From a bacterium (GTDB taxonomy: Bacteria > Patescibacteriota > Minisyncoccia > Phycocordibacterales > Phycocordibacteraceae): DNA of 34,798 bases. Shown here in pieces: positions 3,789 to 25,483 of this stretch. The notes beneath the pieces are model-generated. The model was not told the DNA's origin. It saw nothing but the letters and a program-made list of their open reading frames with translations, and made no database searches. Position 1 is the first letter of the stretch. Each line of letters opens with the position of its first letter. Made by a program: the position numbers and the translations under genes. The stretch is from NCBI GenBank assembly GCA_023264495.1, contig JAHFMM010000002.1, positions 21,177 through 55,974 on the forward strand, read 5' to 3'.

Positions 3789-3819
3789 CGCCGCGATGCG
3801 GCGTTCGGGGAGAATCCCC
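3789..3819 (-). promoter_or_regulatory. Two small hairpins in the purCE 5' leader
   Basis: Minus strand GGGGATTCTCCCC and CGCCGC-ATC-GCGGCG between the predicted promoter and the SD. Confidence 0.5.
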
Positions 3820-3838
3820 ACTGCATACTTCCGCTCGG

Positions 3839-3870: not shown

Positions 3871-3899
3871 AATTGGCCAAAGCCTGGCTTTGGCCAATT
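3871..3899. repeat. 29-nt perfect palindrome (14-bp arms, single central base); probable rpsI-side terminator abutting the purCE promoter
   Basis: AATTGGCCAAAGCC-T-GGCTTTGGCCAATT. Confidence 0.8.
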
Positions 3900-9259: not shown

Positions 9260-11227
9260 ATGCAGAAGGAACATTGGGGATTTGATACGCGCGACCTTGA
9301 TGCGAGCGTCCGGCCGCAGGACGATCTGTACCGCTATGCTGGCGGCAACTGGCTGAAGAAGAACGAGATACCGGCGGCTGAATCGCGCTGGGGTACGTTC
9401 ATCATGCTGCGATATGAGACGGAGAAGAAGTTGCAGAATCTTGTTAAGGAGATTGGAGCGACCCGCAGAGTCGCGCTCGGCTCTCCAGAACAGATGGTGC
9501 GCGACCTCTATCGCTCGGGGATGGATATGCGCACTCGCGTGAAGCGCGGATTACAGCCGCTCGCGCCGTACCAGAAGATGATCGAAACTGTTCAGACAAC
9601 CGACGATCTCGTCCGGTGCATCGCGGAGCTGCATACGATCGGCATCGGTGCCGTATGGGATGTCGGCATCGATCAAGACATGAAAGACAGCACGAAGAAT
9701 ATTCTCTACCTGAGCCAGGGCGGGCTCGGCATGCCGGACCGCGACTATTATCTAAACGATGATGCGGAGTCGCGGCGCGTGCGTACCGCGTACCGCCCGC
9801 ATGTCGCGCGTATGCTCACGCTCACCGGAATGACGAAGACAGAAGCGGCAGCTGCGGCAGAAACGGTGTTTACCATCGAATACAAACTCGCACAAGCCTC
9901 GATGAGGAAGGAGGATGCGCGCGACATGGACAAGATCTATCACAAGAAGACGGTTGCCGGGCTCGCTCGCATAGCGCCAAAGATCGCATGGAAGAAATAT
10001 TTCTCTCTCATCGGGGCCGGCAAGCCATCTTCGCTCATCGTGTGCCAGCCGGATTTCTTTGCCGCTGTAGGACGAGAGATGGCGGAGCTCTCAATAGCTC
10101 AGTGGCGCACCTATCTTTCGTGGCACCTGCTCGCAAGCTTTGCAAGCTTCCTTACTCCCGAGATCGAGAAGCAAAACTTCAGATTCTACGGCACGGTAAT
10201 GGCCGGCGTGAAGACGATGCGCCCGCCTTGGCGGCGCGTCCTCTCAGTAACCAATGCCGGCCTCGGGGAACTTATTGGCAAGGTGTATGTCGCAAGATAT
10301 TTTACTCCTGAGACGAAACGCCGCGTGAATGCGATGGTTGACGACATAAGTGTCGCGTATGAAGCGCGTCTCAGGCGGCTTGGCTGGATGAGTCCGGCAA
10401 CCAAGAAGCAGGCGCTCAAGAAATTACATAGCATGATACGGAAGATCGGCTACCCTGCGCGCTGGAAGTCGTATACAGGGCTCCGCATCACGCAAAACGA
10501 TTACGCAGGAAACGTATTGCGCACGACCCGTTTTGAACATCGCCGCGCGATGCGCAAACTCACGAAACCGGTTAACCGAAGCGAGTGGTATATGAACCCG
10601 CAATCGGTCAATGCCTACTACAGTTTCGGGTTGAACGATATCGTCTTCCCCGCCGCCATCCTGCAACCGCCATTCTTCGATCCTGCCGCTGACGATGCGG
10701 TGAATTACGGCGCGATAGGTATGACGATCGGCCATGAGATGACGCACGGCTTTGATGATCAAGGATCGAAGTTTGATGCGCAGGGCAATATGAAAAACTG
10801 GTGGACCGTCACCGACCGCAAACGTTTTATGCAGAAGGCACAGCCTCTTATAAAACAATTTAATACCTACACCGTCGCGCATGGCGTCCGCGTGAATGGC
10901 AAGCTCACGCTCGGCGAGAATATCGCCGACCTCGGCGGACTCTCGATTGCCTATGATGCCTACCAGCGCTGTCTCGCGCGCACGGGGCGCCGCGATATAG
11001 GCGGCTTCACGCCCGAGCAACGATTCTTCCTCGGCTTCACGCTCTTCGAACGCGAGAAGGCGCGGCCCGAGATCGAGAAGATGCTCGCGATCAACGATCC
11101 TCACTCACCAGCGGTCTTCCGCATCAATGGCCCCGTCTCAAACCTCCCCGAGTTCTATGCTGCCTTCGGCGTGAAGAAGGGCGACAAGCTCTACCGCGCC
11201 CCTAAAGACCGCATCAAGATCTGGTAA
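9260..11227 (+). CDS. M13 family zinc metallopeptidase (neprilysin/PepO-like)
   Basis: NAYYSFGLNDIVFPAAILQPPFF...TIGHEMTHGFDDQGSKFDAQGN...TLGENIADLGGLSIAYDAY. Confidence 0.95.
   Translation: MQKEHWGFDTRDLDASVRPQDDLYRYAGGNWLKKNEIPAAESRWGTFIMLRYETEKKLQNLVKEIGATRRVALGSPEQMVRDLYRSGMDMRTRVKRGLQPLAPYQKMIETVQTTDDLVRCIAELHTIGIGAVWDVGIDQDMKDSTKNILYLSQGGLGMPDRDYYLNDDAESRRVRTAYRPHVARMLTLTGMTKTEAAAAAETVFTIEYKLAQASMRKEDARDMDKIYHKKTVAGLARIAPKIAWKKYFSLIGAGKPSSLIVCQPDFFAAVGREMAELSIAQWRTYLSWHLLASFASFLTPEIEKQNFRFYGTVMAGVKTMRPPWRRVLSVTNAGLGELIGKVYVARYFTPETKRRVNAMVDDISVAYEARLRRLGWMSPATKKQALKKLHSMIRKIGYPARWKSYTGLRITQNDYAGNVLRTTRFEHRRAMRKLTKPVNRSEWYMNPQSVNAYYSFGLNDIVFPAAILQPPFFDPAADDAVNYGAIGMTIGHEMTHGFDDQGSKFDAQGNMKNWWTVTDRKRFMQKAQPLIKQFNTYTVAHGVRVNGKLTLGENIADLGGLSIAYDAYQRCLARTGRRDIGGFTPEQRFFLGFTLFEREKARPEIEKMLAINDPHSPAVFRINGPVSNLPEFYAAFGVKKGDKLYRAPKDRIKIW
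11204..11227. repeat. 24-bp direct repeat, copy 1 (3' end of the M13 peptidase CDS)
   Basis: AAAGACCGCATCAAGATCTGGTAA, identical to 13586-13609. Confidence 0.95.
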
Positions 11228-11228
11228 A

Positions 11229-11263
11229 AGAAAACGCCACCCGCAGCCGAAGCGTTGGGTGGC
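11229..11263 (-). terminator. Intrinsic terminator of purH
   Basis: Minus strand GCCACCC...GGGTGGC (arms at 11257-11263 and 11236-11242) followed by GTTTTCTTTT. Confidence 0.75.
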
Positions 11264-11286
11264 AGTTGAAGATGGAGTATGGGGAT

Positions 11287-11877
11287 TCAGTTGCTGCTAT
11301 ACAGATACGCCGATGAAATCTGACAGTACCGTGCGACAACTGCTTCTGCCATAGCGGCGTATTGAGATACGAACTTCTTTGCCTGTGTCGGATCAACCGC
11401 CCCACGTTCGACATCATAGATGTGGCGTAACACTTCGTCGAGTTGATCATTGGAGCTGACCACAATCCGCCGTCCTTTTGCTGCAGAACGGAGCATCGTC
11501 GGTCCGCCAATATCAGTCTTCGCACGAACTGATTCAGGAGTGTGATCCAGTTTCGCGATTTCTTCCTTGAGTGGGTAGAGATCAACGTATACCAGATCAA
11601 TGCGTGGGATACCGATACGGTTGAGCTCCTCCTGCTCCTCGGGTGAATCATCGGCGAGAAGAGCGGCATGCACCTCGCGCGACAAGGTCACAACTTTGTG
11701 CCCAAGGATCGGTTGGCCGACGATCTCGGCAACGTCCTGAATCGGTATTCCGTGTTCCGTAAGATGTTTTGCCGTACCCGCTGAACCAAGCAGGTGCCAT
11801 CCCAGTTGGTGAAGGCTTCTTGCGAAGTCCGCCAAGCCTGTCTTATCGTAGGCCGATAGTAACGCTGTCTTCCTCAT
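11287..11877 (-). CDS. Stand-alone IMP cyclohydrolase domain (PurH N-domain; no AICAR transformylase domain)
   Basis: ALLSAYDKTGLADFARSLHQLGWHLLGSAGTAKHLTEHGIPIQDV...IDLVYVDLYPLKEEI...KTDIGGPTMLRSAAKGRRIVV; ends after the MGS-type domain. Confidence 0.85.
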   Translation of the reverse strand: MRKTALLSAYDKTGLADFARSLHQLGWHLLGSAGTAKHLTEHGIPIQDVAEIVGQPILGHKVVTLSREVHAALLADDSPEEQEELNRIGIPRIDLVYVDLYPLKEEIAKLDHTPESVRAKTDIGGPTMLRSAAKGRRIVVSSNDQLDEVLRHIYDVERGAVDPTQAKKFVSQYAAMAEAVVARYCQISSAYLYSSN

Positions 11878-11899
11878 GGTATTTCCCCCATTCGTATTT

Positions 11900-11923
11900 C
11901 AGAAACGCCGGATGGCACTCCTG
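11900..11923 (-). promoter_or_regulatory. purH leader hairpin, ATCC loop
   Basis: Minus strand CAGGAGTGCC-ATCC-GGCGTTTCTG; all 10 positions pair when G-U is allowed. Confidence 0.7.
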
Positions 11924-12007
11924 TACATCTGGGCGGATAGTACCTAACTTTTTCAACTCACACAAGCCAGCGAGGCGAGGCCTTGATATCAAGGCCTCGC
12001 CTCGCTG
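11921..12007. repeat. 87-bp promoter/palindrome module, copy A (upstream of purH)
   Basis: 83/87 identical by manual alignment to 13494-13580. Confidence 0.95.
11937..11965 (-). promoter_or_regulatory. Putative purH promoter TTGTGT-17-TACTAT
   Basis: -35 at 11965..11960, -10 at 11942..11937, 17-nt spacer; conserved in copy B. Confidence 0.65.
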
Positions 12008-12008
12008 G
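11967..12008. repeat. 42-nt perfect palindrome (21-bp arms, no spacer)
   Basis: CCAGCGAGGCGAGGCCTTGAT|ATCAAGGCCTCGCCTCGCTGG. Confidence 0.9.
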
Positions 12009-12020
12009 GTTTGAAAAACT

Positions 12021-12043
12021 AACGCCACCGGGGAGGTGGCGTT
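12021..12043 (-). terminator. Intrinsic terminator of thrC
   Basis: AACGCCACC/GGTGGCGTT arms with 5-nt loop; minus strand continues AGTTTTTC. Confidence 0.75.
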
Positions 12044-12063
12044 GGAGGGTGGAGCATGGGGAT

Positions 12064-13449
12064 TCAGACATGCTCCATAATGTACTGCTTGATTACCGCC
12101 GGGTCTGCTGGCACGCGCGTGATGTGCTCTGGCAGGGTGCCGAACATCTCATACCCTTTCGGGATAGGAGGTTCGACCTCAAGCGCCTCACGGATAGTAT
12201 CGGCAAATTTCGCCGGATGAGCCGTTTCTGCGACGATGAGTGGCACATCCGTATGTGTGTACTGGTAGTCGAATGCCACCTTCATCCCCACGGCGGTGTG
12301 CGGGTCTATGGTTGCGCCATATCCCGTGTATACCGTGCGAATCGTACGGATGACTTCTTCGTCGGTTGCCGAGCCAGAACAGAATCCGTCCAAGGATTGG
12401 CTTTTGTCGCTCATCACGAATCTTCCTATGAGCTGAAGCGTATCCAAGAGAAGCCGGAGACGGTATGCATCGCGATCGACACAGTCGAACATGAGCCGTT
12501 CGAAGTTCGATGCCGAGGCGATATCCATCGACGGGCTGGAGGTGATCTTCACATCATCTCCCGCACGTATGCGGTAGAAACCATAACGGAAGAATTCGTG
12601 CAACACGTCGTTTTCATTCGTTGCAACGATGATATTCCTTATCGGGAATCCCATCCGCTTGGCAATGTACGCCGACAATGCATTGCCGAAGTTGCCCGAA
12701 GGCACCGACACGTCAATCACGTCTCCCGGTTTCTTGGTCGCTTGCAATGAAGCATATGCCCAATACACCACCTGTGCCGCGATGCGGGCCCAATTGATCG
12801 AGTTTACGGCACCGATCCGATGCTTCTCCTTGAAGCAGGCATCAGCATTCACTGCCTTCACTATCGCTTGGCAGTCATCGAAGTTTCCGTCTACCACGAG
12901 GTTGTGGATTGATGGATCGTTCAAGCTGTACATCTGCTGCTGTTGGAACCTGCTCATACGGCCATACGGAGAGAGCATGAAGACTTGCATGCCTTCTCTC
13001 CCCCTGTACGCATATTCAGCGGCCGAACCCGTATCGCCAGACGTTGCGCCGAGAATATTGAGCTTCTCGTCCTTCTCGCGCAGCACGTACTCCATCAAGC
13101 GGCCGAGCAATTGCAATGCCTGATCTTTGAATGAAAGCGTAGGACCATTCGAAAGGGCAAGCAACGCAAGGTCTTCGTCCAACCACTTGAGATGTGGAGC
13201 CATATTTGGTGTATAGGTTCTTGCAATGATCTTGTTCAGCTCAACCGTGGGGATATCGTCGATGAAATCCGCAAGGATGATCTGTGCGGCCTGGGTGTAA
13301 TTCAGGCCACGCATAGTATCTATCGTGCCCTCATGGTATTGCGGGTATTCTTCAGGAACGAACAGTCCGCCGTCAGGCGCGAGGCCTGCGAGCAGAACAT
13401 CCTTGAAACTTTGGGGCGGCGTAAGGCCGCGAGTCGATACATATCGCAT
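12064..13449 (-). CDS. thrC: Threonine synthase
   Basis: MRYVSTRGLTPPQSFKDVLLAGLAPDGGLFVPE...PTLSFKDQALQLLGRLMEYVL...GATSGDTGSAAEYAYRGREGMQVFMLSPYGRMSRFQQQQM. Confidence 0.95.
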   Translation of the reverse strand: MRYVSTRGLTPPQSFKDVLLAGLAPDGGLFVPEEYPQYHEGTIDTMRGLNYTQAAQIILADFIDDIPTVELNKIIARTYTPNMAPHLKWLDEDLALLALSNGPTLSFKDQALQLLGRLMEYVLREKDEKLNILGATSGDTGSAAEYAYRGREGMQVFMLSPYGRMSRFQQQQMYSLNDPSIHNLVVDGNFDDCQAIVKAVNADACFKEKHRIGAVNSINWARIAAQVVYWAYASLQATKKPGDVIDVSVPSGNFGNALSAYIAKRMGFPIRNIIVATNENDVLHEFFRYGFYRIRAGDDVKITSSPSMDIASASNFERLMFDCVDRDAYRLRLLLDTLQLIGRFVMSDKSQSLDGFCSGSATDEEVIRTIRTVYTGYGATIDPHTAVGMKVAFDYQYTHTDVPLIVAETAHPAKFADTIREALEVEPPIPKGYEMFGTLPEHITRVPADPAVIKQYIMEHV

Positions 13450-13472
13450 AATCCATACTCCTCAAGTCATTT

Positions 13473-13496
13473 CAGGAACGCGGGATCGCGTTCCTG
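13473..13496 (-). promoter_or_regulatory. thrC leader hairpin, ATCC loop
   Basis: Minus strand CAGGAACGCG-ATCC-CGCGTTCCTG, perfect 10-bp stem. Confidence 0.8.
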
Positions 13497-13580
13497 TACA
13501 TCCATGCGGATAGTACCTAACTTTTTCAACTCACACAAGCCAGCGAGGCGAGGCCTTGATATCGAGGCCTCGCCTCGCTG
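13494..13580. repeat. 87-bp promoter/palindrome module, copy B (upstream of thrC)
   Basis: Same TTGTGT-17-TACTAT promoter (13538..13510) and palindrome with one mismatch relative to copy A. Confidence 0.95.
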
Positions 13581-13585
13581 AGTTC

Positions 13586-13609
13586 AAAGACCGCATCAAG
13601 ATCTGGTAA
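13586..13609. repeat. 24-bp direct repeat, copy 2 (displaced 3' end of the M13 peptidase gene)
   Basis: AAAGACCGCATCAAGATCTGGTAA. Confidence 0.95.
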
Positions 13610-13634: not shown

Positions 13635-14324
13635 CTAAAGCCAATCAATCGGGCTTTTGCCGTGGGCGGTGAGATAATCGTTTGCCTGGCTGAAGTGCTT
13701 GCAACCGAAGAAGCCGGAATGTGCTGAAAGGGGCGAGGGGTGCGAAGCTTCAAGAACAAGATGCTTCGAGCGGTCTATGTGCGCTCCCTTAGTGCGGGCG
13801 TAGTTTCCCCACAGCATGAAGACAAGATGTTCGCGCTTCTCGGAGAGCGCGCGGATCACCGCATCGGTAAATATTTCCCACCCGCGACCCTGATGCGAGC
13901 CGGCGGCGTGCGCACGAACGGTAAGCGTTGCGTTGAGGAGAAGGACGCCCTGCTTCGCCCATCGCGTCAAATCTCCATCGGTGTGTACGAGCGCCTGTCT
14001 GCCAGCAGGCAGAGCTTGTCCGAGGTCAGTTTCGATTTCTTTGAAGATATTCTGGAGCGATGGCGGGACTCGGACATCTTCTTGCACTGCAAAGGCGAGG
14101 CCATTCGCTTGTCCGGCGCCGTGATACGGGTCTTGTCCGAGAATAACGACCTTCACAGCATCAAACGGACAAAGATCAAAAGTGCGGAAGATATTTTTCG
14201 GCGCCGGATAAACGATAGTTTCTTTGTATTCCTTCTTTACGAAGGCAGTGAGCTCAGTGAAATAGGGTTGCGAAAATGTGTCTCTCAATTCCCTTTTCCA
14301 TGACGACTCGATAACAACGTTCAT
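13635..14324 (-). CDS. ung: Uracil-DNA glycosylase (family 1)
   Basis: VVILGQDPYHGAGQANGLAFAV...WAKQGVLLLNATLTVRA...LVFMLWGNYARTKG...LEASHPSPLSAHSGFFGCKHFSQAN. Stop codon lies 1-2 nt left of the listed coordinate by manual translation. Confidence 0.96.
   Translation of the reverse strand: MNVVIESSWKRELRDTFSQPYFTELTAFVKKEYKETIVYPAPKNIFRTFDLCPFDAVKVVILGQDPYHGAGQANGLAFAVQEDVRVPPSLQNIFKEIETDLGQALPAGRQALVHTDGDLTRWAKQGVLLLNATLTVRAHAAGSHQGRGWEIFTDAVIRALSEKREHLVFMLWGNYARTKGAHIDRSKHLVLEASHPSPLSAHSGFFGCKHFSQANDYLTAHGKSPIDWL
13995..14012. repeat. Short palindromic insert in ung coding LPAGRQ
   Basis: CTGTCTGC-CA-GCAGGCAG; encodes ALPAGRQA at a position where I recall other Ung proteins being shorter. 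Confidence 0.6.
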
Positions 14325-24284: not shown

Positions 24285-24325
24285 GAACAACCCCTCGCGT
24301 ACTTGAAGTACGCGAGGGGTTGTTC
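24285..24325. repeat. 41-nt perfect palindrome (20-bp arms, one central base)
   Basis: GAACAACCCCTCGCGTACTT-G-AAGTACGCGAGGGGTTGTTC. Confidence 0.9.
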
Positions 24326-24350: not shown

Positions 24351-24381
24351 TAACTTGCCAGGGAAGTCAGACTTCCCTGGC
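24351..24381. repeat. 31-nt palindrome-containing repeat, copy 1 (3' of the tail-fibre-like gene)
   Basis: TAACTTGCCAGGGAAGTCAGACTTCCCTGGC, identical to 25445-25475. Confidence 0.9.
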
Positions 24382-24396
24382 TTGCTCCTCGTTCTG

Positions 24397-25371
24397 CTAA
24401 ATTCCAACAGCGATCCATTTTGCAGGTGTTCTATCTTGGCAATGACCCGCTGTATCGCCTATCCAATAACTAAAGTTTGAAGTAGTGAAACTAGGAACAG
24501 TAAATACTCCGTCAATGTAATTAAGCGTACCTGTTATACTGAAAACGCTGTTATTAAATGGCATCGGAAAAGTAATGGTAGACGCGCATCCATTACCTGC
24601 CGGTATAGAACCCCACTGCATAACGAGACCTCCAGGCATAACTACATAACCATTTGCAGTGAGTGACATTTGACCTCCTGTTCCGATAGGAGTCCCCAAA
24701 GACACACAAGCAAGCAGTGCAACATTGCGAGGACGAGTTTCAATACCGCCTGCCGAATTTGTTACGACTAAACCCTGGTCATATCCAGTATTTTGTACAT
24801 TTGCATAGTATGTGCCTCCAGATGGACCGCCTAGAGACGATTGAGATGGAACGCCATGGCTATGACTCTTAAACATATCGGCTTGCCAGCTTCCAAGGGT
24901 ACGTCCAACATCAACACCTCTCCCACTATCTAGACCACGAACAAACTCTCCTCGCAGATCTGGCGTTCCGTTTGTTCCGTCAGCAGGGATCCATCCAGAG
25001 GGGCAGGTGCTAGCTTTGAAATATGCGATGGCTCCCGCTGAAGTAGCCGATCCGCCAGTGCCTCCGCTCGGCGCGAGCCAACTAGCCTTCCCCGTGCCGT
25101 TCGTCGTGAGGACGTAGCCGGCAGGAGCGGTACTCGCGATCTGGAACGTGGATGCGGCGATAAGGTTCCAACCGGAGATTGCTCCCGTAGAAGTGAAGTT
25201 GCCAGACTTTGCCTGCGCCGTGCCGCTCGTGTTGATAGGCGCTGAGGCGTTCCCGTCAGGGGGGGGTAGTTTCGGTACGGTCCAGGCATAGACCGAGGAG
25301 ATGCCGAAGAGGAGGACGAGGGCCGTGGTGAGCGCTGAGATATTGAAGGCTTGAGAGAGTTTGGTGAGCAT
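24397..25371 (-). CDS. Secreted protein with phage tail-collar/tail-fibre-like C-terminal region
   Basis: Signal peptide (ISALTTALVLLFGISSVYAW); PDLRGEFVRGLDSGRGVDVGRTLGSWQADMFKSHSH (collar-like) and NGYVVMPGGLVMQWGSIPAG...ITFPMPFNNSVFSITGT (gp53-like tail-fibre C-terminus). Confidence 0.85.
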   Translation of the reverse strand: MLTKLSQAFNISALTTALVLLFGISSVYAWTVPKLPPPDGNASAPINTSGTAQAKSGNFTSTGAISGWNLIAASTFQIASTAPAGYVLTTNGTGKASWLAPSGGTGGSATSAGAIAYFKASTCPSGWIPADGTNGTPDLRGEFVRGLDSGRGVDVGRTLGSWQADMFKSHSHGVPSQSSLGGPSGGTYYANVQNTGYDQGLVVTNSAGGIETRPRNVALLACVSLGTPIGTGGQMSLTANGYVVMPGGLVMQWGSIPAGNGCASTITFPMPFNNSVFSITGTLNYIDGVFTVPSFTTSNFSYWIGDTAGHCQDRTPAKWIAVGI

Positions 25372-25442
25372 GGTGAGTATTGGCGAATATGCGTACAGTA
25401 TACTCTCGGAACAGGTCTTGATATGCGTTTAGGTGTGGATAA

Positions 25443-25483
25443 CATAACTTGCCAGGGAAGTCAGACTTCCCTGGCAAGTTATG
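25443..25483. repeat. 41-nt perfect palindrome (20-bp arms, one central base) containing repeat copy 2; overlaps the ychF stop codon
   Basis: CATAACTTGCCAGGGAAGTC-A-GACTTCCCTGGCAAGTTATG. Confidence 0.9.

Follow-up and report, generated by a model that had tools for sequence, protein, structure and literature searches.

The 3' end of an M13 peptidase gene in this bacterium is followed by a 2.36-kb islet that encodes a predicted IMP cyclohydrolase and a threonine synthase, and we read it as an acquired, palindrome- and RAYT-associated islet that was inserted with a 24-nt duplication of the M13 gene end and belongs to a recurring class (probability roughly 0.55). Members of this proposed class in the genus would consist of palindrome-bounded DNA lying within a 17-44 nt duplication of flanking sequence, often a gene 3' end; they usually contain a RAYT-type HUH transposase gene and, at the M13-ung locus, metabolic cargo. 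The islet was studied within a contiguous stretch of 34,798 nucleotides, hereafter the window, to which the following coordinates refer:

9260-11227, + strand: M13 peptidase gene (ORF; Pfam M13_N and M13), whose last 24 nt are repeat copy 1
11204-11227, + strand: direct repeat copy 1, AAAGACCGCATCAAGATCTGGTAA, the end of the M13 gene
11228-11286, - strand: terminator-like hairpin and 3' UTR of the purH unit, at the left end of the insert; the hairpin is no stronger than those of shuffles (z -0.73)
11287-11877, - strand: PurH IMP cyclohydrolase (MGS) domain only, 196 aa (profile matches)
11896-12011, - strand: control region of the purH unit with 5' UTR hairpin, promoter-like TTGTGT-N17-TACTAT and palindrome 11964-12011
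12012-12063, - strand: 3' UTR and terminator-like hairpin of the thrC unit (z -3.73)
12064-13449, - strand: thrC, threonine synthase, 461 aa (profile matches)
13469-13584, - strand: control region of the thrC unit with palindrome 13541-13580, 91% identical to 11896-12011
13586-13609, + strand: direct repeat copy 2, AAAGACCGCATCAAGATCTGGTAA, non-coding, 5 nt from the palindrome
13635-14324, - strand: ung, uracil-DNA glycosylase (ORF, profile matches), right flank of the insert

The two copies of the 24-mer are exact, with zero mismatches, and are separated by 2358 bp. Copy 1 makes up the last seven sense codons and the stop of the M13 gene (KDRIKIW*), and copy 2 stands 5 nt past the 40-nt palindrome, in the intergenic space that separates this palindrome from the 3' end of ung, whose stop codon is 25 nt away. 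The first-pass annotation had reported this repeat of the M13 3' end and had given the second copy no coding role, and both statements are borne out. Neither the window (0.00 expected from shuffles) nor the 559,921-base assembly contains a third copy with up to three mismatches, so that the 24-mer is not a dispersed repeat, an outcome that would have counted against an insertion. In 29 relatives the M13 C-terminus reads mostly KDRAKIW or similar, and the last 24 nt of the gene have at least four mismatches to the 24-mer in all of them. Since no relative's M13 end comes within three mismatches, copy 2 derives from the M13 gene of this lineage itself, and the identity of the two copies indicates that the duplication event was probably recent.

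Comparison with relatives strengthens the case for insertion. In 12 genomes of the same genus, M13 and ung lie next to each other in convergent orientation with a gap of 6-76 nt; the annotation had named such direct adjacency as support for an insertion. In other relatives the gap holds a different small gene or other sequence. The nearest M13 among the genomes compared is 63% identical. A thrC gene occurs in four of the 92 other genomes of the genus (45-56% identity) and purH-like genes occur in six; the two together are found in none of the 92, and both are missing from every M13-ung spacer that was examined. From the adjacency of M13 and ung in relatives, the patchy distribution of the cargo and the cargo-free spacers we infer an acquired islet; real acquisition by insertion is very probable, and there is good support for a duplication of the M13 3' end in the course of it. 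The annotation had also suggested insertion with a target duplication: the acquired segment and the duplicated M13 end are upheld, but a plain transposon target duplication is not established.

Two readings that dispense with insertion appear very improbable. According to the first, the genes are ancestral at the locus and the 24-mer was copied later by local duplication. The base composition of the insert, only slightly unlike that of its neighbours, would suit this reading, but the distribution of the cargo is patchy, the genes are absent from the examined spacers of relatives, and the 24-mer copies mark the ends of just the accessory segment. According to the second, which we consider just as improbable, the islet was wrongly joined into the M13-ung gap during assembly of this metagenome-derived genome. 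The assembly does comprise 31 contigs, and long palindromes can break assemblies; however, the palindrome is common to another locus on the same contig, the composition is near that of the neighbouring genes, and a wrong join is not expected to copy 24 nt of a flanking gene to the far side of the joined segment.

With regard to the cargo, the gene that the annotation had called purH encodes only the N-terminal IMP cyclohydrolase (MGS) domain, its 196 aa aligning to positions 5-193 of the 510-position PurH model. Similar short versions occur elsewhere in the order (for example in G134, 60% identical). The thrC product is full length, scoring above the cutoff of TIGR00260 and matching 3v7n end to end. 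In a thrC tree it groups with L073, G060 and a genome of the Parcubacteria group and adjoins a clade of betaproteobacterial type, a placement which suggests that the immediate donor was probably another small-genome bacterium. No comparable anatomy was seen at the closest thrC (L073, 58%). The composition of the insert departs only slightly from that of its neighbours, and the codon score of purH is the lowest among 13 genes compared. Models of defence systems matched neither the cargo nor the RAYT protein described below.

The 2358 bp were originally interpreted as a two-gene cassette. They do hold purH, thrC and their control elements, but these are organised as two near-identical expression units and not as one simple cassette, each unit comprising a palindrome, a promoter-like element, a 5' UTR hairpin, a gene and a terminator-like hairpin. 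The two control regions are 91% identical across 116 nt, from which it would appear that the surroundings of one unit were copied around a different gene. Within them, the palindrome arms are complementary at 96% (11964-12011) and 95% (13541-13580), and each unit has a putative promoter, TTGTGT-N17-TACTAT, as read from the sequence. The 5' UTR hairpin is conserved between the units with one two-sided and three wobble changes; its 10-bp stem precedes both cargo genes on the - strand (11878-11955 and 13450-13530). A terminator-like hairpin follows a conserved 3' UTR block in both units and exceeds shuffles only in the thrC unit. Palindromes thus stand at the right end and in the middle of the insert, and the left end has none. 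No Rfam family matched the control regions, the 5' UTR hairpin included, up to E=1, and searches with the 116-nt region elsewhere in the order returned just short palindrome-like matches in two genomes; one of these, in L221, looks like an ordinary hairpin and was set aside.

The absence of a transposase, as first reported, holds for the inserted segment, but the same contig does carry a RAYT-type HUH-Y1 transposase gene with a matching palindrome (contig 12:19692-20375). This gene is located outside the window, about 0.8 kb to the left of its start and 12 kb away from the insert. Outside the insert, its palindrome was found only flanking this RAYT gene and as a related, shorter pair on contig 30. 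The REP_Tyr_transpos and Y1_Tnp models match the RAYT protein below their cutoffs, and its relatives pass Y1_Tnp; the HxH and Tyr residues are conserved without exception among five aligned proteins, and a sequence comparison with solved structures gave nothing meaningful. As judged by the neighbouring ORFs, the gene lies between dnaJ and dnaK, and the whole RAYT unit is enclosed by an exact 19-bp direct repeat, ACTTTTCTGTATGCAAAAT, which at dnaJ is not a gene 3' end. Through this palindrome and this repeat, the contig carries two insertions that have a palindrome in common and that both lie within a long direct repeat.

Palindromes are also found in other surroundings in this genome. Nine RAYT-like matches were counted in the 560 kb of G000, several with their own palindrome type. 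On contig 30 (L202:2237-3739), a gene of the endonuclease/exonuclease/phosphatase type and an ORF of unknown function are located between two TATCAAGGCCTCGCCTTGATA palindromes, which are related to that of the insert. Within the window, a tail-fibre-like gene (24351-25483; Gp53-like_C, weak Collar) is bracketed by a repeated 31-bp palindrome whose core, present seven times in the genome, is identical to that of a RAYT unit on contig 6. The window also has long palindromes that belong to other types, at 1485-1521, 3871-3899 and 24285-24325.

We then compared the left and right flanks, with palindromes masked, of 74 distinct RAYT loci of the genus. Many of these have cognate palindromes on both sides, an arrangement already published for RAYT genes (PMC2817692). 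Exact flank repeats of at least 17 bp were found at three of the 74 loci (36, 19 and 17 bp), whereas mispaired flanks (1/5402) gave an expectation of 0.014; as the 19-bp repeat of the source locus was known before the test, the stricter figure is 2/73. The remaining 71 of the 74 have no exact flank repeat of this length. The 36-bp repeat is found where a helicase-like gene has its 3' end (L259), and the 17-bp repeat is part of a terminator-like hairpin (L248). At a further locus (L225), 41 nt of the 3' end of gyrA, a name given from the protein sequence, recur with their stop beyond the transposase unit with eight differences, of which six are synonymous. As background, 305 kb of DNA from the genus that had not been chosen for RAYT genes yielded, at a spacing of 500-4000 nt, only one repeat pair of at least 17 bp besides that of L283, the locus considered next; repeats of this kind are thus rare in such DNA.

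L283 belongs to a genome of the same genus, G072, and carries an AT-rich thrC of a different lineage, placed on a long branch in the tree. This gene lies within a segment of about 3.5 kb that adjoins atpC (L283:218-3838) and has ATGAGGGGTTTCGTAAACCCCTCAT-type palindromes at both ends. The locus contains an exact 44-nt repeat (L283:232-275 and 3795-3838), in which a palindrome arm and a spacer are combined with the final 24 nt of atpC, stop codon included. In its anatomy the locus is closely like the islet between M13 and ung. Neither repeats nor palindromes of a convincing kind were seen at the three other thrC loci of the genus (L280-L282), one in four being a small sample, and the other purH loci had no convincing flanking repeats.

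How the 24-nt repeat arose can be considered in the light of these loci. In the explanation that we prefer, the islet with its two self-contained units would have been gained by horizontal transfer and inserted at the M13 3' end, the last 24 nt of M13 being duplicated in the process: a staggered break, which a RAYT-type nickase active near palindromes may have opened, would have been filled in around the islet. Two parts of this account are inferences, namely a role of the RAYT/palindrome system in moving or capturing the islet and the origin of the duplication in such fill-in during insertion. A functional link between the islet and the palindrome/RAYT system has about even odds, and the staggered-break origin of the repeat is put forward more tentatively. 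Set against this explanation are the missing left-end palindrome, the 71 repeat-free RAYT loci, the synonymous differences in gyrA and the three bare thrC loci.

A less likely alternative is homology-facilitated illegitimate recombination, in which incoming DNA carrying an M13 3' end and the islet recombined homologously within M13 on one side and was joined illegitimately on the other, 24 nt before the end of the recipient M13, leaving that remnant downstream without the need for a transposase. Recombination of this kind is documented, and it has been put forward as a way in which old gene 3' ends are displaced downstream (PMC5361080, PMC3240628). It would account for repeats that vary in length and often fall at gene 3' ends (M13, atpC, gyrA and the helicase-like gene), and the mostly synonymous differences between the gyrA copies at L225 point to one-sided homologous import there. 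At the M13 gene, however, the identical, lineage-specific copies would require a conspecific donor that already had the islet beside M13, and they fit the staggered-break route at least as well; nor does such recombination explain the shared palindrome or the 19-bp repeat at dnaJ, as that repeat is not the 3' end of a gene. We therefore slightly favour the staggered break over one-sided homologous import.

The transposase itself is not claimed as the maker of the duplication, because larger target duplications are not known for IS200/IS605-type enzymes (PMC2817692), REPtrons reportedly do not move as units (PMC6006769) and most RAYT loci are free of repeats. It is doubtful that the RAYT enzymes of this genus, with their palindromes, capture and insert unrelated metabolic genes in addition to the gene that encodes them, with duplication of 17-44 nt of target and a preference for gene 3' ends; such a cargo-carrying, duplication-making mode, if true, has not been described for RAYT or IS200/IS605 enzymes. 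The locus bears on whether RAYT systems move anything besides their own palindromes. In very small bacterial genomes, where biosynthetic genes are few, such genes are acquired patchily, and a readable footprint of palindrome and duplicated gene end would reveal recent acquisitions from sequence alone. The loci may reflect a gene-uptake route shared by related bacteria.

Known systems resemble the islet in part. As in integrative elements with attL and attR, a gene 3' end is repeated at the far end of the insert, but the islet has no recombinase gene and each locus repeats a different sequence. If a recombinase had acted in trans and used the M13 3' end as its attachment site, the geometry of a gene end intact on one side and copied on the other would fit; such site-specific integration is nonetheless highly improbable, as the 24-mer has two copies only and thus no further attachment site. 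In the Vibrio T6SS effector arrays (PMC5361080), too, new genes have been placed after a gene, and its former 3' end persists farther downstream; the islet differs in that just 24 nt of that end are left, the two copies are identical and the junction carries a palindrome. Its 24-bp duplication also departs from the rule for IS200/IS605 elements, which insert without a larger target duplication (PMC2817692). A further likeness is to RAYT/REP systems (REPtrons), in which an HUH-Y1 gene has cognate palindromes on both sides: the palindrome of the insert is of the type that flanks a RAYT gene in the same genome. Unlike a REPtron, the insert encodes only the purH-MGS domain and thrC in place of a transposase, is bare at its left end and lies within a direct repeat. 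With neither a transposase gene nor a left-end palindrome, the islet does not count as a RAYT/REP element in its own right; it has the look of a non-autonomous relative that carries cargo.
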